NCBI GenBank assembly: GCA_019694875.1
Contig: JAIBBC010000002.1
Location: 1,141,887 to 1,205,886, forward strand
Reading direction: 5' to 3'
DNA from: Cyclobacteriaceae bacterium
Lineage (GTDB): Bacteria; Bacteroidota; Bacteroidia; Cytophagales; Cyclobacteriaceae
Length of the DNA: 64,000 bases
Shown: piece after piece, positions 696-9,740 of the stretch
Layout: each line of letters begins with the position of its first letter
Numbering within the stretch: the stretch's first letter is position 1
Notes under the pieces: generated by a model
Database searches by the model: none
Told to the model about the DNA's origin: nothing
Seen by the model: the letters and a program-made list of their open reading frames with translations, nothing else
Position numbers and translations under genes: made by a program

Positions 696-1151
696 TCAGG
701 ATAGTAATGTTACGGTTGCGTTCATCGTCACCTTCGATTTAACCGAGTTCGAGATCAGGCAATTAAGTTCTGATTTTTGGAGCACCCTCATGGCGCGGTC
801 GCGGTCCTTTTCATCGCGGATGGTGACAACAGGCTCCAGCACAACTTCCGACATCAGGAATTTTCCTTCGATCTGTTCGAGCTTGCCTTTCGCTCCGCAT
901 TCAAACGAAACAAAATCGAGTTTTGAATTTTCGGCTACCGCCAGAAAGGTTGTCATCAGGCAGCTGCTTACGGCCGCGGTGAACAAATGCTCGGGCGACC
1001 AAATACCCGGCATACCTTTCGGGAATTCCGGGGGAGTGGCCACTTCAATGCATCCGTCACCCGCCTTAACATTCTTTAGCTCAGGCGAACACATAATGCC
1101 CTTGCGGTCATTCCGCCAGGAAATGTTAACGGTATAAAAATGTGAGTCCAT
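696..1151 (-). CDS. OsmC family peroxiredoxin-like protein
   Basis: 151 aa, the usual length of OsmC/Ohr proteins, which reduce organic hydroperoxides and in some members act on persulfides with a reactive Cys pair. Both expected cysteines are visible: C64 in AAVSSCLMTTF and C131 in ELNCLISNS, the positions of the peroxidatic and resolving residues. The WSPEHLFTAA segment before C64 is the family's NPE(E/H)L(L/F) region. No signal peptide, so cytoplasmic. It is the last gene of a three-gene unit (DUF2892, rhodanese, osmC) with 4-nt gaps, driven from the Crp/Fnr-type promoter at 1711-1754. Substrate is not deducible; the rhodanese neighbour makes sulfane sulfur plausible. Confidence 0.9.
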   Translation of the reverse strand: MDSHFYTVNISWRNDRKGIMCSPELKNVKAGDGCIEVATPPEFPKGMPGIWSPEHLFTAAVSSCLMTTFLAVAENSKLDFVSFECGAKGKLEQIEGKFLMSEVVLEPVVTIRDEKDRDRAMRVLQKSELNCLISNSVKSKVTMNATVTLLS

Positions 1152-1155
1152 GGTA

Positions 1156-1467
1156 TTAGATTTTGTTTGTGAGGCTCATCCAGCCGCCACCGTTGTATAC
1201 CGATTGATATCCATTTCCGGTCAGCAGAGTTTTAGCCATTCCGCTGCGCATGCCCGATGCACAGCAGGTGATGATCGTTTTATTTTTATCAGGCAATCTG
1301 CCCAGGTTGTTCTTAAGCTGGTCGAGCGGAATGTTAACCGACCCTTTAATGTGCCCACCGCTATATTCTCCCTTTGAACGCACATCAAGAATAAGAGCAC
1401 CTTCTTTTACAAGCTGTGCGTAGTCCACCGACTTGATGCCAAGCATTCGTTTTATTACATCCACCAT
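1156..1467 (-). CDS. Single-domain rhodanese (sulfurtransferase)
   Basis: 103 aa single rhodanese domain. It has the LILDVRSKGEYSGGHIKG segment (DVR at 28-30) and an active loop CASGMR with catalytic C69 and R74; a second cysteine, C68, precedes it. Rhodaneses move sulfane sulfur from thiosulfate or persulfide donors to thiols. No signal peptide, so cytoplasmic. Sits 4 nt from both neighbours (DUF2892 upstream, OsmC downstream). A second rhodanese of the same size class lies at 8693-9025 under an equivalent promoter, which argues for a shared sulfur-related job. Confidence 0.9.
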   Translation of the reverse strand: MVDVIKRMLGIKSVDYAQLVKEGALILDVRSKGEYSGGHIKGSVNIPLDQLKNNLGRLPDKNKTIITCCASGMRSGMAKTLLTGNGYQSVYNGGGWMSLTNKI

Positions 1468-1471
1468 GTTG

Positions 1472-1690
1472 TTATTTTTTATCGTTCAGTTTTTTCCTCA
1501 GCGTGCTTAAGCCGAACGGAAGGTAAATAGGGCAGAAGCTGATGAGGCTGGTTAGCAAGAATGCAACCGAAGCTACGATCAGGATAATTCCCAGTGTGCC
1601 GGTCACTGTTCCTGTCGCATACAGGGCAATCATTACAACAGCCAGTATTGTGCGGATGATACGGTCGGCATTTCCCATGTTCTTTTTCAT
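1472..1690 (-). CDS. DUF2892 family inner-membrane protein
   Basis: 72 aa with two predicted membrane helices (IIRTILAVVMIALYATG and GIILIVASVAFLLTSLISF) and the CPIYLPFGLST tail of the DUF2892 (YgaP-like) family. In some proteins this domain is fused to rhodanese; here rhodanese is the next gene, 4 nt downstream, which is split-gene support for a joint function. I start at the ATG at 1690; a TTG two codons upstream (1696) is possible but less likely. First gene of the unit that follows the operator at 1741-1754, 50 nt upstream. Confidence 0.85.
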   Translation of the reverse strand: MKKNMGNADRIIRTILAVVMIALYATGTVTGTLGIILIVASVAFLLTSLISFCPIYLPFGLSTLRKKLNDKK

Positions 1691-1710: not shown

Positions 1711-1754
1711 TAAAGGTGCGCCCGGTGACGTTTTAATTCTGTAACCAAAGTCAC
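1711..1754 (-). promoter_or_regulatory. Crp/Fnr-type operator and -7 box before DUF2892-rhodanese-osmC
   Basis: On the minus strand the operator reads GTGACTTTGGTTAC (1754-1741), a GTGAC-N4-GTCAC palindrome with one mismatch. Exactly 22 bp downstream comes CACCTTTA (1718-1711), a TAnnTTTG-like -7 box. The same spacing occurs at 8011-8054 and 9043-9086. The operator centre falls near -41, as in class II Crp/Fnr activation. The likely regulator is the protein encoded at 9087-9740; that link is inferred. Confidence 0.75.
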
Positions 1755-1839
1755 CAAGGTGTTTTTGTTTGTGAAAACAAATGTAGAATGCCGCGTCAGC
1801 GGTTATTCCTGATGAAAATCAGTGGATACCGTGACTTTT

Positions 1840-2037
1840 TCAGCAGGTTTCACCCTTTTCCACACCTGCTTTTTCCAGGATTGATTCCAGCGGACAGAAT
1901 CTTGTGAAAGCCGATTGAAGCAGGTTCAATGCAACAAAGCCCGCAAGTATCAGCCATGCGGTATCGATAAAGTAGGCGAGCGAAACGCTCACGAGCACAA
2001 GCGTTCCTGCCACGCCTCTGATTATTCGTTCTCTCAT
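1840..2037 (-). CDS. Second DUF2892 family membrane protein
   Basis: 65 aa with two membrane helices (VAGTLVLVSVSLAYFI, AWLILAGFVALNLLQ) and a FTRFCPLESILEKAG tail, the classic DUF2892 ending with its single conserved Cys. Last gene of the long efflux unit, 21 nt after the small protein at 2059-2373. A paralogue in fold of the protein at 1472-1690 but of different sequence. Ends with GETC. Function unknown; the family recurs beside rhodaneses and sulfur or metal stress genes. Confidence 0.85.
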   Translation of the reverse strand: MRERIIRGVAGTLVLVSVSLAYFIDTAWLILAGFVALNLLQSAFTRFCPLESILEKAGVEKGETC

Positions 2038-2058
2038 ATTGATAATTTTAAACAGCGT

Positions 2059-2373
2059 TTATATTTCATGCGTAGACTTTTCAACCGGCATCATGAAGGC
2101 ACGCACGGGAAATCGCGTTTTGTGCGAATCATTATAGTCACGGATTAGTTGCAATGCGCGTGTTGCACTTGATTCGGTGGTAAAGCTGAACATAAACACC
2201 GAGTTGTACTGGTCGCGCGACCGCGCAAACCAGTTTCCGAGTAAGTTTTCATCTGCGGAATTTTTGAATCCGGTAGTTTCAGTTGCACTGAAAACGGTAA
2301 TGCCTGCCCGCTCAAGTATTTTGGCGACATCGGGCTGGTGTTCTTTCAGGCTGGTAACAAATAATAGTTTCAT
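2059..2373 (-). CDS. Small soluble protein of the efflux operon, family not recognised
   Basis: 104 aa, no signal peptide or membrane helix. Begins MKLLFVTSLKEHQPDVAKIL, then an AGITVFSATETTGFK segment and FMFSFTTESSATRALQLI. This beta-alpha-beta / alpha-beta pattern looks like a compact ferredoxin-like (PII- or DUF3240-like) fold, which is a guess from pattern only. It follows the RND permease gene by 4 nt, so the two are translated together; small ferredoxin-like regulators beside RND permeases are known for heavy-metal pumps. It could bind a ligand or modulate the pump. No closer assignment possible from the sequence. Confidence 0.7.
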   Translation of the reverse strand: MKLLFVTSLKEHQPDVAKILERAGITVFSATETTGFKNSADENLLGNWFARSRDQYNSVFMFSFTTESSATRALQLIRDYNDSHKTRFPVRAFMMPVEKSTHEI

Positions 2374-2377
2374 GACG

Positions 2378-5300
2378 TTATGCTTTTTTTGAGTTGCGCA
2401 TCATGCGGAAATAGATCAATGGCACAACCAGCAAGGTTAGAAATGTGGATGTGATGGTGCCGCCCATAAGTGAAATGGCAAGGCCTTGAAAAATCGGATC
2501 GAAGAGGATGATGACAGCGCCCAGCACCACGGCACCTGCTGTTAATAAAATAGGAGTGGTGCGTACTGCGCCAGCTTCGATGATGGCTTGTTTAAGCGGA
2601 ATGCCTTCGTTAAGCCGGATGTTGATGAAGTCGATCAGCAAAACCGAATTGCGAACCATGACTCCGGCAAGCGCAATAAAACCGATCATGGAAGTCGCTG
2701 TAAAGTAAGCTCCGAGCATCCAGTGACCGAATACAATACCAATGAGTGAAAGGGGGATCGCAGCCAGCATGACGAGCGGAACGCTGAAGTTCTGGAACCA
2801 GCCTACGATCAGGATGTAGATCAATACAATCACCACTGCGAATGCAATTCCCAGGTCGCGGAAAACCTCCAGCGTAATCTGCCATTCACCGTCCCACTTT
2901 AAGGTAAAGTTGTCTTCAAACTCGGGTTGATGATTGAACGATTCTTCCAGCACGTACCCTGGCGGCACTTCAATGTTTTTCAACTTGTCGGATATATCAA
3001 AAATGGCGTAGGCCGGGCTTTCCAAATCTCCCGCCAGATCAGCTGTGACAAAAACAACCCGCTTTTGATTTTTACGATAAATGCTTTTTTCTTTTAAGGC
3101 TTTGCGGATGGTTACGAGATTGCCCAGCGTCACAGATTCTCCCCGTTGGTTAACTACCGTCAGGCTACGTAAGTCCGACAGGCTTGATTTCTCATCGTCA
3201 CCAACCTGAAGTACGATCATGACTGGGTTGAACGTTACCGGGTTGTGCAATATACCCGCGGGCATGTCGGAGAGTGCAGCCTGAAGTACGGCATTTACCT
3301 GAGCGGGGGCCACACCCATACGCATGGCCCGGTCTTTATCTACCTCGAACAAATATTTAGTCTGGTCAGCTTCCACCATCCAGTCCACATCAACAACACC
3401 TTCCGTATGGGCGATCAATGTCTTCACCTGATCGGCTATTTTCAATTGCTGCTGGTAATCGGGCCCGTACACTTCGGCTACGAGCGTTGAAAGTACCGGG
3501 GGTCCGGGCGGAACTTCTACAAGCTTAACGTTGGCGTGATATTGGGCGGCAATTTGTTGAATACGTGGCCGCAGTTGTTTGGCGATGTCATGACTTTGAA
3601 TGCTTCGCTCGCCCTTGTGAACAAGGTTTACCTGAATATCAGCCACGTGTTCACCTGACCGCAGATCGTAGTGCCTGACCAGACCATTGAAACTGATGGG
3701 GCCTGATGTACCTACATAACCCTGGTAGTTTTTAATGAGTGGCTGTGCAGCGAGGTATTGCGTGATCTCTCGTGTAACCACCGCGGTGCGTTCGAGCGTA
3801 CTCCCTTCCGGCATATCAATCACAACCTGAAGCTCGTTCTTGTTGTCGAACGGAAGCATCTTAACGGCTACCCATTTTGTATAAAAGAATGAAACGGAAA
3901 TCAACAGGATAACCACCGTGCCGAGAATAAATGTCCATCGCTTCCAGCGTGTTTCGAGCATTGGGTTAATGAACGCCTTGTAGATTTTGTAAACTTTTGA
4001 TTCTTCCATGGCCGGGTGACTTTTGTCATCGTGCGATTCCTTCTCGCGCAAAAACAAGTACCCGAGGTAGGGGGTAAGCGTGAGCGCAACCACCAGCGAC
4101 AACAGCATAGCAATGCTGGCTCCGATTGGCATCGGACTCATATACGGCCCCATCATGCCCGAAACAAAAGCCATCGGTAACACGGCTGCGATTACCGTAA
4201 ACGTGGCGAGAATTGTTGGATTCCCAACTTCGTTGATGGCGAAAATAGCCGCTTGCAGGAATGGCAATCGTTTCATTTTGAAATGCCGGTGCATGTTCTC
4301 TGCGATGATGATGGAATCATCAACTACAATACCGGTTATAAACACCAGTGCGAAAAGCGTAATGCGGTTAAGCGTGTAGTCGAGAAAGTAATAGCTGAAA
4401 AGCGTGAGCGCGAACGTGACTGGCACAGAAAGGAAAACCACAAGCCCTCCGCGCCATCCCATAGCCAGCATTACGAATGCGGTAACGGCAATTATTGCAA
4501 CGAACAAGTGAAGCAGTAATTCCGACACTTTTTCAGAAGCGGTTTCTCCGTAGTTTCTTGTCTCCGTAACATGAACCTCGTCAGGAATTATTTCTTTTTT
4601 GAGATGATCAACTTTGGTGATGATGCGATGTGACAACTTCATGGCATCAGCGCCTTTTTTCTTGGCGATCGAAAGTGTAACCGCTGCATATTCGGAGGGA
4701 AAGTGATGTTTACTTGTGTCGCTCAGGCCGTATCCGAAATATGCATATTGAACAGGCTTTTCTGCGCCATCTTCAACCGTGGCTACCTGTTTCAGATAAA
4801 CCGGGTGCCCGTTGTTTGAACCGATAATCGCATTGCTTATATCTTCAGCAGAAATGAAGTAGCTACCGGCTTCTACTGAGAATGCGGTGTCGTGCGCGAT
4901 GAAGCGGCCGGCTGATAACTGCGCATTGTTCCCTTCTAGTTGATGACGGATGGTTAGGAAGTCGACATGATGTTGAGCCATTTTAGCTTTATCCAGTGTC
5001 ACCCGTATCTGGCGGCTTCGCCCGCCAATAATATTAACTGCAGCGACATCCGGAATTTTTTTGATCTCATGTGTGAGGGTCTGGCCCAACTGCTTCAGGT
5101 CATAGTCGGAGTAGGTTTCGCTCCAAAGCGTTAATCCCAAAACGGGCACGTCATCAATGGCGCGGGTCTTTACCAGCGGCAGCATAACACCGTCAGGCAT
5201 TTGATCCATATTCTTCATCAGCTCGTTGTAAAGTTTTACGAGCGAACGCTCAACATCTTCGCCTACATAGAATTGTACGATGATCATTGCCTGACCATCC

Positions 5301-5569
5301 ATGGATGTTGAGTACACATATTCAACACCTTTGATGTTTGAAATGATTTTTTCGAGGGGTTGTGCAACCCGGGCTTCAACCTCTCGGGGCGATGCGCCCG
5401 GGTATCGAAGAAATATATCCGCCATCGGAACATTGATCTGAGGTTCTTCTTCCCGGGGGATAAGCAGGGTGCTATAGGCTCCAATCAGCAAAAAGCCGAT
5501 CATCAACAAGATGGTGAGTTTCGAGTTGATAAATGCTTTCGCGATATTTCCTGACAAACCGTCTTTCAT
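2378..5569 (-). CDS. RND-family efflux permease (inner membrane)
   Basis: 1063 aa, the normal RND permease length, with the two-fold architecture of a helix, a large periplasmic loop, then a helix bundle. Visible landmarks: first helix LTILLMIGFLLIGAYSTL, IPREEEPQINVP at the porter start, the TM4 proton-relay pair in GIVVDDSIIIAE, and a second half starting near RWKRWTFILGTVVILL. Proton-driven export through the partner adaptor and TolC protein encoded just upstream. The EEEPQ motif and GIVVDDS place it among HAE/HME-type pumps that are hard to assign to a substrate. Third gene of the unit (gap 22 nt to the adaptor gene), under the operator at 8041-8054. Confidence 0.95.
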   Translation of the reverse strand: MKDGLSGNIAKAFINSKLTILLMIGFLLIGAYSTLLIPREEEPQINVPMADIFLRYPGASPREVEARVAQPLEKIISNIKGVEYVYSTSMDGQAMIIVQFYVGEDVERSLVKLYNELMKNMDQMPDGVMLPLVKTRAIDDVPVLGLTLWSETYSDYDLKQLGQTLTHEIKKIPDVAAVNIIGGRSRQIRVTLDKAKMAQHHVDFLTIRHQLEGNNAQLSAGRFIAHDTAFSVEAGSYFISAEDISNAIIGSNNGHPVYLKQVATVEDGAEKPVQYAYFGYGLSDTSKHHFPSEYAAVTLSIAKKKGADAMKLSHRIITKVDHLKKEIIPDEVHVTETRNYGETASEKVSELLLHLFVAIIAVTAFVMLAMGWRGGLVVFLSVPVTFALTLFSYYFLDYTLNRITLFALVFITGIVVDDSIIIAENMHRHFKMKRLPFLQAAIFAINEVGNPTILATFTVIAAVLPMAFVSGMMGPYMSPMPIGASIAMLLSLVVALTLTPYLGYLFLREKESHDDKSHPAMEESKVYKIYKAFINPMLETRWKRWTFILGTVVILLISVSFFYTKWVAVKMLPFDNKNELQVVIDMPEGSTLERTAVVTREITQYLAAQPLIKNYQGYVGTSGPISFNGLVRHYDLRSGEHVADIQVNLVHKGERSIQSHDIAKQLRPRIQQIAAQYHANVKLVEVPPGPPVLSTLVAEVYGPDYQQQLKIADQVKTLIAHTEGVVDVDWMVEADQTKYLFEVDKDRAMRMGVAPAQVNAVLQAALSDMPAGILHNPVTFNPVMIVLQVGDDEKSSLSDLRSLTVVNQRGESVTLGNLVTIRKALKEKSIYRKNQKRVVFVTADLAGDLESPAYAIFDISDKLKNIEVPPGYVLEESFNHQPEFEDNFTLKWDGEWQITLEVFRDLGIAFAVVIVLIYILIVGWFQNFSVPLVMLAAIPLSLIGIVFGHWMLGAYFTATSMIGFIALAGVMVRNSVLLIDFINIRLNEGIPLKQAIIEAGAVRTTPILLTAGAVVLGAVIILFDPIFQGLAISLMGGTITSTFLTLLVVPLIYFRMMRNSKKA

Positions 5570-5591
5570 ATTGATTTATCTATTAATAAGA

Positions 5592-6671
5592 TTAATTGGA
5601 CTTTACCTGTACGGGAATACCGTTATACAGTTTACTGCCGGCAGATGCAATGAACGGCTCAGTCGGATTCAGGCCGGATAACACTTCAACCTGATTATTA
5701 AATGTTCGCCCCAACCGGATCCAACGGATCATGGCGGTTTTACTTTCGCTGATGGTATACAATCCTGCCAATTGATCTTTGTAAATAATTGCTGAGGCTG
5801 GAACCAGTACGCTGGCAGCGCTTGATCCGGGCACGGAGAAAAATACCGTTGCCGACATTCCGGGATAAAGAACACCCTTCCCGGTTGAAAGACTGATGGT
5901 TACTGCATAATGTCCGCCACTGTTGCTGGAAGAAGGACTGATTTCGGATATGGTGCCGGTTATTTTTTTGGACATGGATTTCAGAAGAATCATGACTTCC
6001 ATGCCGGTTCTTAATTTTGCGATGTCGGTTTCTGTTACCGAAGTAGTTACCTCGTAGTTTCCATTTTTCTCGAGCACAAGCAAAGGCATTCCGGGATTGG
6101 CCATGCTGCCCTCATCTGCCAGTTTTTGAGTAACCACACCTGAGAAAGGTGCGGCAAGCTGAGTATAGCTGAGCATCGATTCCGTTTCACGTTGCAGTTG
6201 CCGGGCAGATTCTGTCTTGGCTGTCAGCGACTGAACACGCAGGGTCATGTTCTCAAGTTCTTTTTCAGAAGCGCTTTGCTGTTTATATAACGCCTTGTAT
6301 CGATCCAAATCCTTTTGCGCATCGGTTAATGCAGCCTCAGCTTCCGACACCATGGCTTTAGCTTGAGCTTTTTTAGCAAGAATGTCGGTGTTGCTTATAG
6401 ATATGAGAAGCTGACCTTTCGTTACGGCATCGCCCGGCTTCACATGAAATGCCTGAATAAATCCCATCACCCGGGTGCTGAGCATAGCGGTTTCACTTGC
6501 CACAACCTGTCCGCTGGCGGTTATAGTTTGTGTGATATTGACTTGTGGTAGTGCAATTTGTACGCTAACAGGCTGCTGTTCGTTCTGCCGGTCGGTTCGC
6601 TCGTTCGAACAGCCGGTGATCATCCCAAGCACAATAAGAATTGTAACTGTTTTTACAGAATATGATTTCAT
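5592..6671 (-). CDS. RND periplasmic adaptor (membrane fusion lipoprotein)
   Basis: 359 aa. Lipoprotein signal with lipobox IT-G-C (C21), so anchored to the inner membrane facing the periplasm. Then the HlyD-type layout: biotinyl-lipoyl half (ETAMLSTRVMGFIQAFHV), alpha-helical hairpin (about 95-160, AKAMVSEAEAALTDAQKDL onwards), second lipoyl half (LAAPFSGVVTQ), beta-barrel and membrane-proximal domain. Bridges the permease (2378-5569) and the TolC protein (6681-7988), which lies 9 nt upstream. Length and order fit an RND adaptor. Confidence 0.93.
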   Translation of the reverse strand: MKSYSVKTVTILIVLGMITGCSNERTDRQNEQQPVSVQIALPQVNITQTITASGQVVASETAMLSTRVMGFIQAFHVKPGDAVTKGQLLISISNTDILAKKAQAKAMVSEAEAALTDAQKDLDRYKALYKQQSASEKELENMTLRVQSLTAKTESARQLQRETESMLSYTQLAAPFSGVVTQKLADEGSMANPGMPLLVLEKNGNYEVTTSVTETDIAKLRTGMEVMILLKSMSKKITGTISEISPSSSNSGGHYAVTISLSTGKGVLYPGMSATVFFSVPGSSAASVLVPASAIIYKDQLAGLYTISESKTAMIRWIRLGRTFNNQVEVLSGLNPTEPFIASAGSKLYNGIPVQVKSN

Positions 6672-6680
6672 GGCAGGTAT

Positions 6681-7988
6681 TTACAGATTCGGGGTTGTTG
6701 TTAAAAAGCTCAGATAAGCTTGTGTTATGATGAGTTGTGCTTGTGCCTGAGCCTGGCCAAGCTCTTGCTGAGCCATCATTGTCTGGGCTTGCAGCAGTTC
6801 GGTGGTGGTTATCAGACCTTGTGCGTACCGGTTTTGCATCAGGCGAAATACTTCCTTCGCTTGTGCACTGGCAAGGGTTTGCTGGTTCACAAGATTTTGG
6901 GTATCCTGAAGTTGACGAGTTGTTTTCGAAAGCTCCAGTTGTGCCTGTGCCTTTTGAAATTCCAATTCACGTGCGGCTTTGTCCCTTTCGATGCGTTGAT
7001 TGGAAATTCTGTGATGTGTGGCCGTTCCATTGAAAACAGTCCACGAGAGTTGTGCGCCAATCAGGTAAGCATCCGATCCAAAACCAAACGCCCCGGAGTC
7101 GTTAAACATGAATTCTCCAAATGCATTCAGCTTGGGAGCATACGTCATTTTGTTCGACTTAAGTATGTTTTCCCGCGCCTGAACAGCGGCTTGCATGGCA
7201 GCAAAGTCCGCCCGGTTTTCCGGGATACTTTCCCTGCTTGAGCCCGGTTGGTTGTAAGCCAGCGTGTCCGTTTCATAAACTGTTCCCGGCTGCATGCCCA
7301 TCAGCAATCCGAGATAATCGGATGCATTCTGAACGTTGCTGTTTGCTTCAGCCAGTTTGCTTTCGAGGTTGGCAACCTGTACCTGTACTTGCAGAATGTC
7401 CGATTGCTGTAAATATCCCTGTTCGAAGCGATGTTGGGTTGAAAGGGCTACAGCTTTCGCTGAAATAACAGCTTGCTCCATCACCGCCACCGCGCGATGC
7501 GAAAGTTGCAGTTGCGCATAAGCCTTCTCCAGTTCGAACGCAACATACTGCCGGGTACGCTGATGTTTGAATAGCAAGGCTTCTGCCTGTTTGCCGGCTG
7601 CCTGCCGTTGGTAGATCAAATCTAAATTTATGATTGGCTGCTGTAGTTCAATTTTTGTCATAAAGTTTTGAGTGCCGGAAGGGTTATTAAGCAGCGCAGG
7701 ATTGAAGTCGGAAGCGGTAATGGCCTGTTGCTGAAGTTTTAACCCGAATGCGTTCAGCGGATTATTGGTGGTTATAGCTGTGTAACTAACATTAACCTGT
7801 GGAAGGAACACCGCCTGGGTTTGTTTGAACTGAGCGCGAGACGCATCTGCCTCCAGTTGAGATAATTTTATGGACTGGTTATTTTTCTGGGCTGCATCCA
7901 GTGCCTCTTGTAGCGTGAGATGAGTCGTCTGGCCATTTGCCCATACCGGTATGAGTAAAATGAGAATGCCTCGAAGTAAGTTATTCAT
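6681..7988 (-). CDS. TolC-family outer-membrane efflux channel
   Basis: 435 aa from the ATG at 7988, which places a clean signal peptide (LLRGILILLIPVWANG) at the N-terminus; an in-frame extension to 8090 has no merit, because it would swallow the promoter. Two repeated OEP halves are visible, each opening with a long coiled-coil helix (LTLQEALDAAQKNNQSIKLSQ; later AQLELSKTTRQLQDTQNL). Contains many Gln/Ala heptads. Forms the trimeric outer-membrane tunnel for the adaptor and permease encoded downstream. First gene of the efflux unit; the operator sits 52 nt before the start. Confidence 0.93.
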   Translation of the reverse strand: MNNLLRGILILLIPVWANGQTTHLTLQEALDAAQKNNQSIKLSQLEADASRAQFKQTQAVFLPQVNVSYTAITTNNPLNAFGLKLQQQAITASDFNPALLNNPSGTQNFMTKIELQQPIINLDLIYQRQAAGKQAEALLFKHQRTRQYVAFELEKAYAQLQLSHRAVAVMEQAVISAKAVALSTQHRFEQGYLQQSDILQVQVQVANLESKLAEANSNVQNASDYLGLLMGMQPGTVYETDTLAYNQPGSSRESIPENRADFAAMQAAVQARENILKSNKMTYAPKLNAFGEFMFNDSGAFGFGSDAYLIGAQLSWTVFNGTATHHRISNQRIERDKAARELEFQKAQAQLELSKTTRQLQDTQNLVNQQTLASAQAKEVFRLMQNRYAQGLITTTELLQAQTMMAQQELGQAQAQAQLIITQAYLSFLTTTPNL

Positions 7989-8010
7989 GTGCTGGAAAAA
8001 TAATATGCTG

Positions 8011-8054
8011 TAAAAGTATTGAGGGAGCGAACGATCAACTGTGACTACAGTCAC
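8011..8054 (-). promoter_or_regulatory. Crp/Fnr-type operator and -7 box before the efflux operon
   Basis: On the minus strand GTGACTGTAGTCAC (8054-8041) is a perfect GTGAC-N4-GTCAC palindrome. Then 22 bp downstream comes TACTTTTA (8018-8011), a TAnnTTTG-like -7 box; a TTG two bases past the operator sits at the -33 position. Same geometry as at 1711-1754 and 9043-9086. Confidence 0.78.
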
Positions 8055-8073
8055 GCTGATCAGGAATTGCAAG

Positions 8074-8098
8074 AAAAAGACAGAGTTCACGCTCTGCC
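8074..8098 (-). terminator. Rho-independent terminator after the DUF983 gene
   Basis: Minus-strand stem GGCAGAG / CTCTGTC with one mismatch, loop CGTGAA, followed by TTTTTC. It closes the unit 9025-8126 and separates it from the efflux promoter at 8011-8054. Confidence 0.6.
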
Positions 8099-8125
8099 TT
8101 GTATGATATCTGTATTCACCGGAGG

Positions 8126-8506
8126 TTACGCTTTATCGAACCGGGAATCGTACCGCACGAAGAAGTTCAAATAGATCGTTCGTGACAGACGCAATGTGAC
8201 CGGAAACAGTATGATTACGGCACCAATGATTGAATACATGTATACGAACATGTCAGGATTGAAAAGAACCCGTAAGGCTACATACACCGTTGTAAACAGT
8301 GCTACCTGCAACGCATAGCTCACGTACATGGCACCAGAGTAAAATGCCGGTTCAAGTTCGAACCGCTGACCGCAGTGTGAACACTTTTCAGGCATTTGAG
8401 TGAAGCGTTTTAAGTTGTACGCCCCGGCCTCAAACAAGTCTCCGTGCTGACATCGCGGGCATTTTTGATAAATAATGCTGTATAGTTTATTACCTCTTGG
8501 AAGCAT
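8126..8506 (-). CDS. DUF983 family zinc-ribbon membrane protein
   Basis: 126 aa from the ATG at 8506 (an upstream ATG at 8545 is possible but lies deeper in the previous gene). Starts with a CPRC...CSHC pair of CxxC motifs about 29 residues apart, the zinc ribbon typical of DUF983, then two membrane helices (YALQVALFTTVYVALRVL and YSIIGAVIILFPVTL). Family function is unknown; members occur beside cytochrome oxidase and metal or sulfur stress genes. Overlaps the previous gene by 17 nt, so translation is coupled. Last gene of the rhodanese-led unit. Confidence 0.85.
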   Translation of the reverse strand: MLPRGNKLYSIIYQKCPRCQHGDLFEAGAYNLKRFTQMPEKCSHCGQRFELEPAFYSGAMYVSYALQVALFTTVYVALRVLFNPDMFVYMYSIIGAVIILFPVTLRLSRTIYLNFFVRYDSRFDKA

Positions 8507-8696
8507 CGCGTTTCGAATGTGTAAAAAGATTTGCTGTAAGAACACCCATTAACGCACCGTAGAGTGTGCTGTTAACAGGAGATGAGGTAATCGAGCACGT
8601 ACCGGAGAGACATCCAACGTAATTCCAGTAAGCATACCCGGCAACAGCCCCGATGATTAATCCTCCACTCCACAAATACCACGTGCGTGCTTTCAT
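8490..8696 (-). CDS. DUF6132-type small membrane protein
   Basis: 68 aa with two short hydrophobic helices (LIIGAVAGYAYWNYVG and LYGALMGVLTANLF) around a GCLSGTCSITSSPVNST loop. The G-C-x-x-G-T-C-x-I-T/S pattern is the mark of the small family named DUF6132; I recall the pattern but could not search it. The two loop cysteines (CLSGTC) could be redox or sulfur carriers. Overlaps the rhodanese stop by 4 nt (ATGA) and DUF983 by 17 nt, so the three are tightly coupled. Confidence 0.75.
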   Translation of the reverse strand: MKARTWYLWSGGLIIGAVAGYAYWNYVGCLSGTCSITSSPVNSTLYGALMGVLTANLFTHSKRDASKR

Positions 8697-9025
8697 GAGC
8701 CGACAATTTTTCCGGACCAGCTGTTGATGCCGCCCGCGAGATTACACACCGTAAATCCCAGTTCAGCCATGCTCAGGCACGCCTGCATGCTCCGGCCGCC
8801 ACTGCGGCAGTACACGAAGTATGTCTTCGTCTTGTCGAGTGCTGCAATGTCATCGTAAAATGAATGGCCCATTACGTCAATGTTTATAGCGTCCGGTATA
8901 CGGCCCGAATTAAATTCGTGTTCCGTTCGAACGTCAAGTAATATGGCAAGCGGATCATTATTTAGTTGTGTCTGAAATTCGAATGCCGAGAGATTTTTAA
9001 CTATTCCGTCCTCTGTTTTGTCCAT
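8693..9025 (-). CDS. Rhodanese-like sulfurtransferase
   Basis: 110 aa single rhodanese domain: LLDVRTEHEFNSGRIPDAIN segment and active loop CRSGGR (C73 to R78). The AGGINSW ending is the normal rhodanese C-terminus. Cytoplasmic, no signal. Heads a three-gene unit with the DUF6132 and DUF983 genes and has its own operator 47 nt upstream. Together with the rhodanese at 1156-1467 it gives two sulfurtransferases in one putative regulon. Confidence 0.9.
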   Translation of the reverse strand: MDKTEDGIVKNLSAFEFQTQLNNDPLAILLDVRTEHEFNSGRIPDAINIDVMGHSFYDDIAALDKTKTYFVYCRSGGRSMQACLSMAELGFTVCNLAGGINSWSGKIVGS

Positions 9026-9042
9026 AACTCATAGAATTTGCA

Positions 9043-9086
9043 CAAAGGTGGAACAGGAGGCACAGGCCCACAGTGACTTTGGTCAC
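9043..9086 (-). promoter_or_regulatory. Crp/Fnr-type operator and -7 box before the second rhodanese
   Basis: On the minus strand GTGACCAAAGTCAC (9086-9073) is a perfect palindrome, directly abutting the crp/fnr stop codon at 9087-9089. CACCTTTG (9050-9043) follows after 22 bp. Identical spacing to the two other sites in this window. Confidence 0.78.
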
Positions 9087-9740
9087 TCACGAAGATTTCA
9101 GGCGCGTGATTTCATTGCGGGAGACTGAAATGATCTTTCGCATTTCCAGTTTTTTGAGCAACCGGGAGATAACCTCCCGCGAGGAGTTGAGATCATCTGC
9201 GATTTGCTGATGCGTGATCGACACCGTATTTGTTTTGAGTGCATCGAACTGGCGCTGTAGATAAAATTCAAGTTTTTCATCCATCGACCGGAAAGCAACC
9301 TGATCGATCACCTCCAGCAGTTCCTCAAATCTGCCGCGATAGGTTTCGAGCACGAAGTAATACCAGCTTTTATGATCTTTCATCAGGCTGTCCATGTAAT
9401 GGATCGGAATCGCTAAAGCCTTAACAGGTGTGACGGCTATGGCTTTAATCGCACTCGCTTCATTTTTGGCAGCACAGATCATGGAGAGTGCGCAGGCGTT
9501 TCCTTTTTCGAGGAAGTAAAGGAAGAATTCTTCACCGTCATTGCCCTCGCGGTACAGCTTCACGCGGCCATCCAGAATCAGTAGTGAATTCTTGAAATAC
9601 TGCCCCTGGCGCATCATGTTTTCGCCCTCATTAAATTCTACCACCTGACCGATTTTTTCCAGGTGATCAATCAGTTCAGGATTGAAGGTTGGAAAAAGCT
9701 GATGCAGAGACTCGATTTGATGCGTTTTTTCTGAAGACAT
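9087..9740 (-). CDS. Crp/Fnr family transcriptional regulator
   Basis: 217 aa. N-terminal cyclic-nucleotide-binding-like beta-roll (about 15-115), long dimer helix (about 120-145), C-terminal winged HTH (about 150-210). The recognition helix SSREVISRLLKKLE keeps the R-E-x-x-S-R contacts that read GTGA half-sites in this superfamily. It lacks the N-terminal Cys cluster of FNR but has a C83-x5-C89 pair in the beta-roll (NACALSMICA), a possible thiol switch. No cAMP-site motif is obvious. Three matching palindromes lie before nearby units; none is seen before this gene itself, so it is not evidently autoregulated. Confidence 0.92.
   Translation of the reverse strand: MSSEKTHQIESLHQLFPTFNPELIDHLEKIGQVVEFNEGENMMRQGQYFKNSLLILDGRVKLYREGNDGEEFFLYFLEKGNACALSMICAAKNEASAIKAIAVTPVKALAIPIHYMDSLMKDHKSWYYFVLETYRGRFEELLEVIDQVAFRSMDEKLEFYLQRQFDALKTNTVSITHQQIADDLNSSREVISRLLKKLEMRKIISVSRNEITRLKSS

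Follow-up and report, generated by a model that had tools for sequence, protein, structure and literature searches.

A Crp/Fnr-family regulator of Bacteroidota and its operator-promoter element: a putative switch for sulfide and persulfide detoxification

In a 64,000-nucleotide stretch from a Cyclobacteriaceae bacterium (hereafter the window), three promoters share one composite element, a GTGAC-N4-GTCAC operator followed exactly 22 nucleotides (nt) further on by a -7 box, and one of the three operators abuts the gene of a 217-residue Crp/Fnr-family protein (9087-9740, minus strand). Taken together, the sequence evidence makes it probable that this protein and its homologues are class II activators of sulfide and persulfide detoxification, the likely effector being a reactive sulfur species that acts at Cys83. 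The evidence lies in the fixed spacing of the element, in the genes that stand behind it across the phylum, in an invariant cysteine and, above all, in the covariation between a residue of the recognition helix and the operator.

The operator-box composite in the window and in related genomes

On the minus strand, all three promoters run in the order operator, 22 nt, box and first ATG of the unit:

9073-9086, minus strand: operator GTGACCAAAGTCAC, an exact GTGAC-N4-GTCAC that abuts the crp stop codon, conserved in the related loci L028 and L029
9043-9050, minus strand: -7 box CACCTTTG, 22 nt past the operator at 9073-9086; predicted transcription start (+1) at about 9038
8041-8054, minus strand: operator GTGACTGTAGTCAC, exact, conserved upstream of TolC in L029, L030 and L034
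8011-8018, minus strand: -7 box TACTTTTA, 22 nt past the operator at 8041-8054; predicted +1 at about 8006
1741-1754, minus strand: operator GTGACTTTGGTTAC, one mismatch, with a 10-base core identical in L028 and L029
1711-1718, minus strand: -7 box CACCTTTA, 22 nt past the operator at 1741-1754; predicted +1 at about 1706

A previous sequence-only reading of this DNA had described two perfect palindromes and one with a single mismatch, each followed on the minus strand by exactly 22 nt and a YACYTTTR box and lying 47-52 nt before the first ATG. All of this is borne out: the palindromes are found in those places, the spacer is 22 nt at all three, and the gap between operator and first ATG measures 50 nt (1741-1754), 52 nt (8041-8054) and 47 nt (9073-9086). 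YACYTTTR, a consensus drawn from the three window sites themselves, is one version of TAnnTTTG, the published -7 element of Bacteroidetes. From TAnnTTTG the boxes differ at 1, 1 and 2 positions, and the composites scored with it carry 1, 1 and 3 mismatches, the last count including the mismatch in the operator. In E. coli CRP, an operator centred at -41.5 marks the class II activator position. TAnnTTTG is the -7 box read by the primary sigma factor of Bacteroidetes; PMC9723704 places it at -12 to -5 in Flavobacterium psychrophilum, and PMC7366714 gives the same consensus. Counting back 22 nt from a box that starts at -12 would put the operator at -48 to -35 and its centre at -41.5, in agreement with the class II position near -41 proposed before and relative to a predicted transcription start. 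The fixed 22-nt rule would also offer a handle on class II activation with the unusual Bacteroidetes sigma factor.

The genome-wide scan suggested by the sequence-only reading was run on the 4,678,476 bases (5 contigs) of the bacterium's own genome. With up to three mismatches allowed, operator, N22 and YACYTTTR occur together at 12 places, and only the three window composites reach zero or one mismatch (0, 0 and 1); the other nine all have three, and pairs of the window's quality are thus not equally numerous at random positions. Because the reversed control yields 12 + 10 places, we regard composites with three mismatches as noise. The signal is the pairing of operator and box at this spacing and not the operator by itself, which was rejected as evidence: it occurs at 56 places with at most one mismatch, against 98 for its control. 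Chance palindromes near ordinary -7 boxes would account for that last comparison, the operator alone being no commoner than its control, but would account neither for the own-genome composites nor for the spacer distributions in relatives and the residue-189 covariation described below, and we give this explanation a negligible probability. The genome's third exact operator (G000:C4:870257, G000 being the bacterium's own genome) falls within a 99-residue frame, and neither strand has a [TC]AN[CT]TTTG box 8-38 nt from it; an operator-like sequence at 4016-4029, within the RND permease gene, is absent from the genome-scan composites. A relaxed scan with TANNTTTG and at most three mismatches returned 23 places (9 + 14) against 10 + 21 for its control, mostly noise; around ten of the 20 places beyond the window's three the frames were read, and only one of these ten precedes a gene of the sulfur set described below, a metallo-beta-lactamase (MBL)-rhodanese gene with a degenerate site. 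As a separate observation, locus L160 (G000:C1:321111-321154) has an operator-like ATGATTCAGGTCAT, N22 and TATTTTTG upstream of a gene that, by eye, resembles the iron-sulfur repair (RIC/ScdA) protein, and this site may belong to another Crp/Fnr regulator.

The same spacing recurs well beyond the window. In 22 loci with Crp homologues taken from genome contigs (the nearest homologue, 92% identical, comes from a Cyclobacteriaceae metagenome-assembled genome), composites with N22 or N23 recur in many, one scan having been limited to these two spacers. When the spacer was left free between 8 and 38 nt in 146 genomes of the order, 29 matches were obtained, 18 at N22, 6 at N23 and five as singles, which places 24 of the 29 in two of 31 spacings (binomial 2e-24, relatedness ignored). 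A set of 43 loci (718,528 bp, including the first 20 kb of the window), scanned with at most one mismatch each in the operator and in TAnnTTTG, a rule that recovers two of the window's three sites, gave 47 composites against 1-4 per shifted spacer over ten shifts. Around 116 operator matches in 41 Crp-anchored loci (both strands, each palindrome counted about twice), spacers of 0-70 nt were scanned and exact TAnnTTTG boxes occur only at N21 (2), N22 (19) and N23 (3); with one box mismatch allowed, N22 rises to 37 and N23 to 6, and any other spacer has at most 8. Upstream regions of orthologous units, a comparison also proposed earlier, show a promoter footprint: in seven promoter comparisons between the window and L028, L029, L030 and L034, the operator core is identical at 10/10 positions and the box at 5-7/8, with the spacer between them at 6-10/22. 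For a sample of 392 genomes of the phylum, the listed matches number 20 in 18 genomes, 13 of them at N22/23, one at N24 and six elsewhere. Laboratory strains of Chitinophaga or Chryseolinea are among the carriers of sites (L033 and L045-L047). Finally, 75 genomes of the order have a Crp homologue (E <1e-20), and 16 of them carry an N22/23 composite; of the 71 genomes without such a homologue, 1 does (Fisher 1.3e-4, counted by hand, relatedness ignored). The proposal of a local regulon accordingly stands in that the window promoters share the element, and is too narrow in that the element recurs in genomes of the order and class. Beside the spacing, we note a G two bases past GTCAC in 78% of 50 N22 sites and 73% of 11 N23 sites, which between the two classes shifts along with the operator and not with the box.

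Operator recognition by the regulator

The protein encoded at 9087-9740 combines a cNMP-type beta-roll with a Crp helix-turn-helix (Pfam cNMP_binding and HTH_Crp_2), confirming the Crp/Fnr gene read at 9087, and its AlphaFold2 model has a mean predicted local distance difference test score (pLDDT) of 86.3. An alignment of 32 homologues identifies its recognition-helix residues as R188, E189 and R193, which we take to correspond to Arg180, Glu181 and Arg185 of E. coli CRP. One homologue, in locus L049, has Val189 instead, with a GTAAC-N4-GTAAC site directly behind its crp gene, and for this reason 60 more homologue loci were fetched. The resulting 103 loci, 101 of them with a homologue, were scanned with operator positions 3 and 12 free, a spacer of N22/23 and no more than one additional mismatch over operator and box together. 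Sites were found in 44 of the 73 loci with Glu189, where positions 3/12 read G/C 39, A/C 26, G/T 5 and A/T 2 times, and in 17 of the 28 with Val189, where they read A/A 14, A/T 5, A/C 2, G/T 1 and A/G 1 times. Position 12 is thus C in 65/72 sites with Glu189 versus 2/23 with Val189 (Fisher 4e-13, relatedness ignored), and position 3 is looser, A being common in both groups. Counted per locus, Glu189 goes with C in 43 and without it in one (L112, where the site lies before crp itself), and Val189 without C in 16, with one tie counted as C (L188, whose genome holds the Glu-type homologue L111 too). In a tree from which the helix columns were left out, residue 189 switches 9 times and the operator class 8 times; independent tree pairs are concordant in 2.7 cases on average and discordant in none. 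Spacing and target kinds are alike in the two groups.

We consider this covariation the strongest evidence that the regulator family reads these sites, a reading that is well supported by sequence. The assignment of a regulator, offered before as an inference, thereby gains support from three sides, the conserved spacing, the promoter footprints and the match between residue 189 and operator, and the Glu/Val swap would serve as a natural test of operator recognition. The sites could alternatively belong to another Crp/Fnr paralogue, such as a regulator responding to cyclic AMP (cAMP), oxygen or, like HcpR, nitric oxide: GTGA-N6-TCAC is the half-site spacing of Crp proteins in general, and genomes hold several Crp/Fnr genes each. 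Against such a paralogue, it is residue 189 of this very protein that covaries with the operator, a site lies within 120 nt past the crp match on its strand in 36/101 loci, and none of the Pfam families found for the 64 first genes considered below is hcp; we judge it very improbable.

Three minor observations concern the regulator itself. One genome (G004) holds both types, a Glu-type paralogue with GTGACTCTTGTCAC before TauE (L108) and a Val-type with GTAACCATTGTTAC before a gene that by eye looks peroxiredoxin-like (L186), an apparent split of operator specificity. A composite upstream of the crp homologue in 3/101 loci (L112, L188 and L216, the last with a poor box and a 169-nt gap to the gene) suggests autoregulation there. 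A further match of the N-terminal domain of the 9087-9740 protein is to NF041163, the model of family 2B encapsulins, at E 4.9e-8, far below cut-off; these encapsulins are linked to sulfur metabolism.

Target genes, the cysteine pocket and the candidate signal

The genes behind the element give the putative regulon its theme, which the sequence-only reading had left unnamed. The fetched loci contain 66 composites; for 64 of them, a frame of 60 residues or more lies downstream and was scanned by Pfam. Many of these loci are close kin, many were picked via their Crp gene, and at least 3 of the 64 frames (L059:696, L064:1734 and L068) seem spurious on inspection by eye. The first genes fall into TauE (16), rhodanese (15), metallo-beta-lactamase (14), YgaP-like transmembrane (10), outer membrane efflux (4), Sulf_transp or YeeE (4), AhpC (3) and TPMT-like methyltransferase (2), with thioredoxin, YceI, a SoxA/TsdA cytochrome and a multihaem cytochrome once each. 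The nearest solved relatives of the MBL-rhodanese protein are 3tp9 and 3r2u; the SoxA/TsdA-type cytochrome matches thiosulfate dehydrogenases, with 4wqc as its nearest solved relative. Among pattern-found sites, 23 of 35 with N22-24 have the start of a sulfur-set frame no more than 260 nt away, versus none of 11 with other spacings (Fisher 2e-4; four references in this comparison match themselves). Three of the phylum-sample matches were already in the order scan, and six of the 11 N22-24 sites that were new stand before the sulfur set. The TolC-RND pump carries the element in four genomes (the window, L029, L030 and L034). Sites therefore precede genes for persulfide dioxygenase, rhodanese, TauE and YeeE, with enzyme functions assigned by similarity, and sequence evidence supports sulfide and persulfide detoxification as the regulon theme.

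The same regulator, operators and class II geometry could instead answer to a general thiol oxidant, an electrophile or disulfide stress, the sulfur enzymes then being part of a thiol-repair set. The OsmC-like protein, peroxiredoxins, thioredoxin and RND pump among the targets are compatible with this, as is the fact that Cys83 is the sole cysteine in many homologues, but the commonest first genes, TauE and persulfide-dioxygenase-like enzymes, together with YeeE and thiosulfate dehydrogenase, point to sulfur compounds, and the 24 Pfam families assigned to the 64 first genes include no catalase family. We consider a general thiol signal unlikely, albeit the most serious of the alternatives.

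The detoxification reading also has a candidate reactive centre. Cys83 and Cys89 are the only cysteines of the 9087-9740 protein; among the 101 homologues, Cys83 is present in all, Cys89 in 66 and Cys90 in 37. In the AlphaFold2 model Cys83 directly precedes helix 84-91, which fold comparison places in the cyclic-nucleotide-binding domain. cAMP-responsive CRP has a conserved Arg just before the Ser/Ala of the phosphate-binding cassette. Here Ser96 is kept in 98/101 homologues, and the preceding column 95 has Arg in only 4/101 (Ala in the window protein), with column 94 having Arg in 10/101 (Glu in the window protein). Given the rarity of that Arg and the invariant Cys83 in the nucleotide-binding domain, the pocket seems to have given up nucleotide binding in favour of thiol chemistry. 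By the same column-95 count, identity with cAMP-CRP was rejected. FNR of the 4Fe-4S type has an N-terminal cysteine cluster; identity with it was likewise rejected, only Cys83 and Cys89 being present, and so was identity with HcpR, as the 64 first genes, to which that search was limited, include no hybrid-cluster protein by Pfam.

On this basis we propose that the 9087-9740 protein would bind GTGAC-N4-GTCAC as a Crp/Fnr-family dimer centred at -41.5 and activate, in class II fashion, sigma-A promoters whose TAnnTTTG -7 box begins 22 nt past the operator; together with its Bacteroidota homologues it would switch on MBL-rhodanese for persulfide oxidation, rhodanese, YgaP/DUF2892 and OsmC for sulfur transfer, TauE and YeeE for the transport of sulfur compounds, thiosulfate oxidation, peroxiredoxin/thioredoxin and, in the window's lineage, the TolC-RND pump. 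The most likely signal would be a reactive sulfur species that reacts at Cys83, inside what was once the cyclic-nucleotide pocket; Cys89 or Cys90, where present, would be an optional resolving cysteine. It is the targets alone that point to this effector. Repression relieved by reactive sulfur would have precedents in CstR and SqrR/BigR, well-studied persulfide sensors that are repressors. Steric repression, however, has no need of an operator fixed at -41.5 or -42.5, the position expected for class II activation (the scan covered operators upstream of the box), and we hold repression to be improbable.

Several observations weigh against the proposed activator of persulfide detoxification. Of the two MBL-rhodanese genes in the bacterium's own genome, one has only the degenerate upstream site GTGCGATAAGTCAC-N22-GATTTTTG (2+1 mismatches) and the second has no site in the composite scans. 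The strict linked composite is missing from 17/41 Crp-anchored loci, and 40/101 loci have no site even under the looser operator. Some first genes are not sulfur-specific (YceI, the multihaem cytochrome, the methyltransferase), and no sulfur-set gene follows 12/35 of the pattern-found N22-24 sites or five of the 11 new phylum-sample sites. The independent tree pairs are few, 3 on supported branches and 6 on all. Cys89 is absent in 35/101 homologues, on which ground a C83-C89 dithiol switch was rejected as the general mechanism, and many homologues with clean sites carry Cys83 alone, which is why Cys83 is proposed as the reactive thiol. L040 has Ser89 yet intact sites; its neighbouring frames look broken, so that a sequence error is possible there.

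The known systems share parts of this arrangement. E. coli CRP belongs to the same superfamily and, at class II promoters, has the GTGA-N6-TCAC half-site spacing, the Arg-Glu-x3-Arg recognition residues and the -41.5 operator of the window system. It differs in sequence (13-18% identity in structural alignments to CRP chains), the window protein having a pocket with C83 and no conserved phosphate-binding Arg, and the window promoters are of the Bacteroidetes -7 type and serve a sulfur-detoxification gene set. CstR (CsoR family), SqrR/BigR (ArsR family) and FisR are also known or reported to control sulfide/persulfide enzymes (PMC9774590 and PMC7315123), among them PDO, SQR, TauE and yeeE-yedE-pdo2 under Acinetobacter FisR and BigR; unlike the window protein, they belong to families other than Crp/Fnr, CstR and SqrR/BigR appearing in the reports consulted, from Firmicutes and Proteobacteria, as cysteine-based repressors and FisR as a sigma-54 activator. 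PMC7315123 reports that a close E. coli-type Crp in Acinetobacter is persulfidated, to an effect which that paper leaves unknown. HcpR is a Crp/Fnr-family regulator of nitrosative stress present in Bacteroides too, and in PMC545781 and PMC13370916 it is reported to bind heme in B. thetaiotaomicron and is predicted in Desulfovibrio to govern sulfate-reduction and putative thiosulfate reductase genes; its core target, hcp, is not among the 64 first genes here. The best solved sequence match to the 9087-9740 protein (E 6.8e-31) is PDB 3dv8, a 'transcriptional regulator, Crp/Fnr family' whose name carries no function and whose alignments show C-x5-C where the window protein has C83/C89, together with an R-E-x3-R recognition helix; judging from these, the cysteine pocket may extend beyond Bacteroidota.

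A sulfide/persulfide response under a Crp-type switch seems not to have been described before: in the literature searched, which leaves out most subscription journals, we found no account of a Crp/Fnr regulator tied to a persulfide regulon in Bacteroidota. The persulfide sensors named in the reviews consulted are from Firmicutes and Proteobacteria, and our searches yielded none from Bacteroidota, which are widespread in soils, the sea and the gut. Our analysis provides a testable regulator, an exact predicted binding site, a promoter rule and a recurrent gene set. We lean, by a modest measure, towards a broader proposal in which Bacteroidota use a Crp/Fnr-type activator as a main persulfide sensor, a single invariant cysteine having replaced cyclic-nucleotide recognition; it would form a structural class apart from CstR, SqrR/BigR and FisR, and its paralogues' operators would have diverged (GTGAC-N4-GTCAC versus GTAAC-N4-GTAAC) through the Glu/Val swap.

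Gene content of the three units

Unit 1 (from 9025) starts directly behind the regulator gene. The genes are:

9087-9740, minus strand: Crp/Fnr-family regulator, 217 residues (Pfam cNMP_binding and HTH_Crp_2)
8693-9025, minus strand: rhodanese, first gene of unit 1 (Pfam PF00581)
8490-8696, minus strand: DUF6132 protein, unit 1 (Pfam PF19628)
8126-8545, minus strand: DUF983 protein, unit 1 (Pfam PF06170); the frame opens at GTG 8545, with the first ATG at 8506
6681-7988, minus strand: TolC-type outer membrane efflux protein, first gene of unit 2 (Pfam PF02321)
5592-6671, minus strand: RND periplasmic adaptor, unit 2 (TIGR01730, above cut-off)
2378-5569, minus strand: RND permease, unit 2 (NCBIfam RND_permease_2, E 4.9e-140, below the curated cut-off)
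2059-2373, minus strand: 104-residue protein, unit 2, between the RND permease and DUF2892 genes
1840-2037, minus strand: DUF2892/YgaP-like membrane protein, unit 2 (Pfam PF11127)
1472-1690, minus strand: DUF2892/YgaP-like membrane protein, first gene of unit 3 (Pfam PF11127)
1156-1467, minus strand: rhodanese, unit 3 (Pfam PF00581)
696-1151, minus strand: OsmC-like protein, unit 3 (TIGR03563, perox_SACOL1771, E 7.3e-14, below cut-off)

The unit contents agree with those first read from the letters (DUF2892-rhodanese-OsmC; TolC-adaptor-RND-104-residue protein-DUF2892; rhodanese-DUF6132-DUF983), the RND permease and OsmC by below-cut-off NCBIfam matches. The regulon would tie several poorly known families, DUF2892/YgaP-TM, DUF6132, DUF983 and the RND pump with its 104-residue protein, to sulfur stress. 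That small protein (2059-2373) has no match in Pfam or NCBIfam at 0.001; a weak model built from 2 sequences (pLDDT 71.5) shows a ferredoxin-like order of elements, and the protein is perhaps a PII-like partner of the RND pump.

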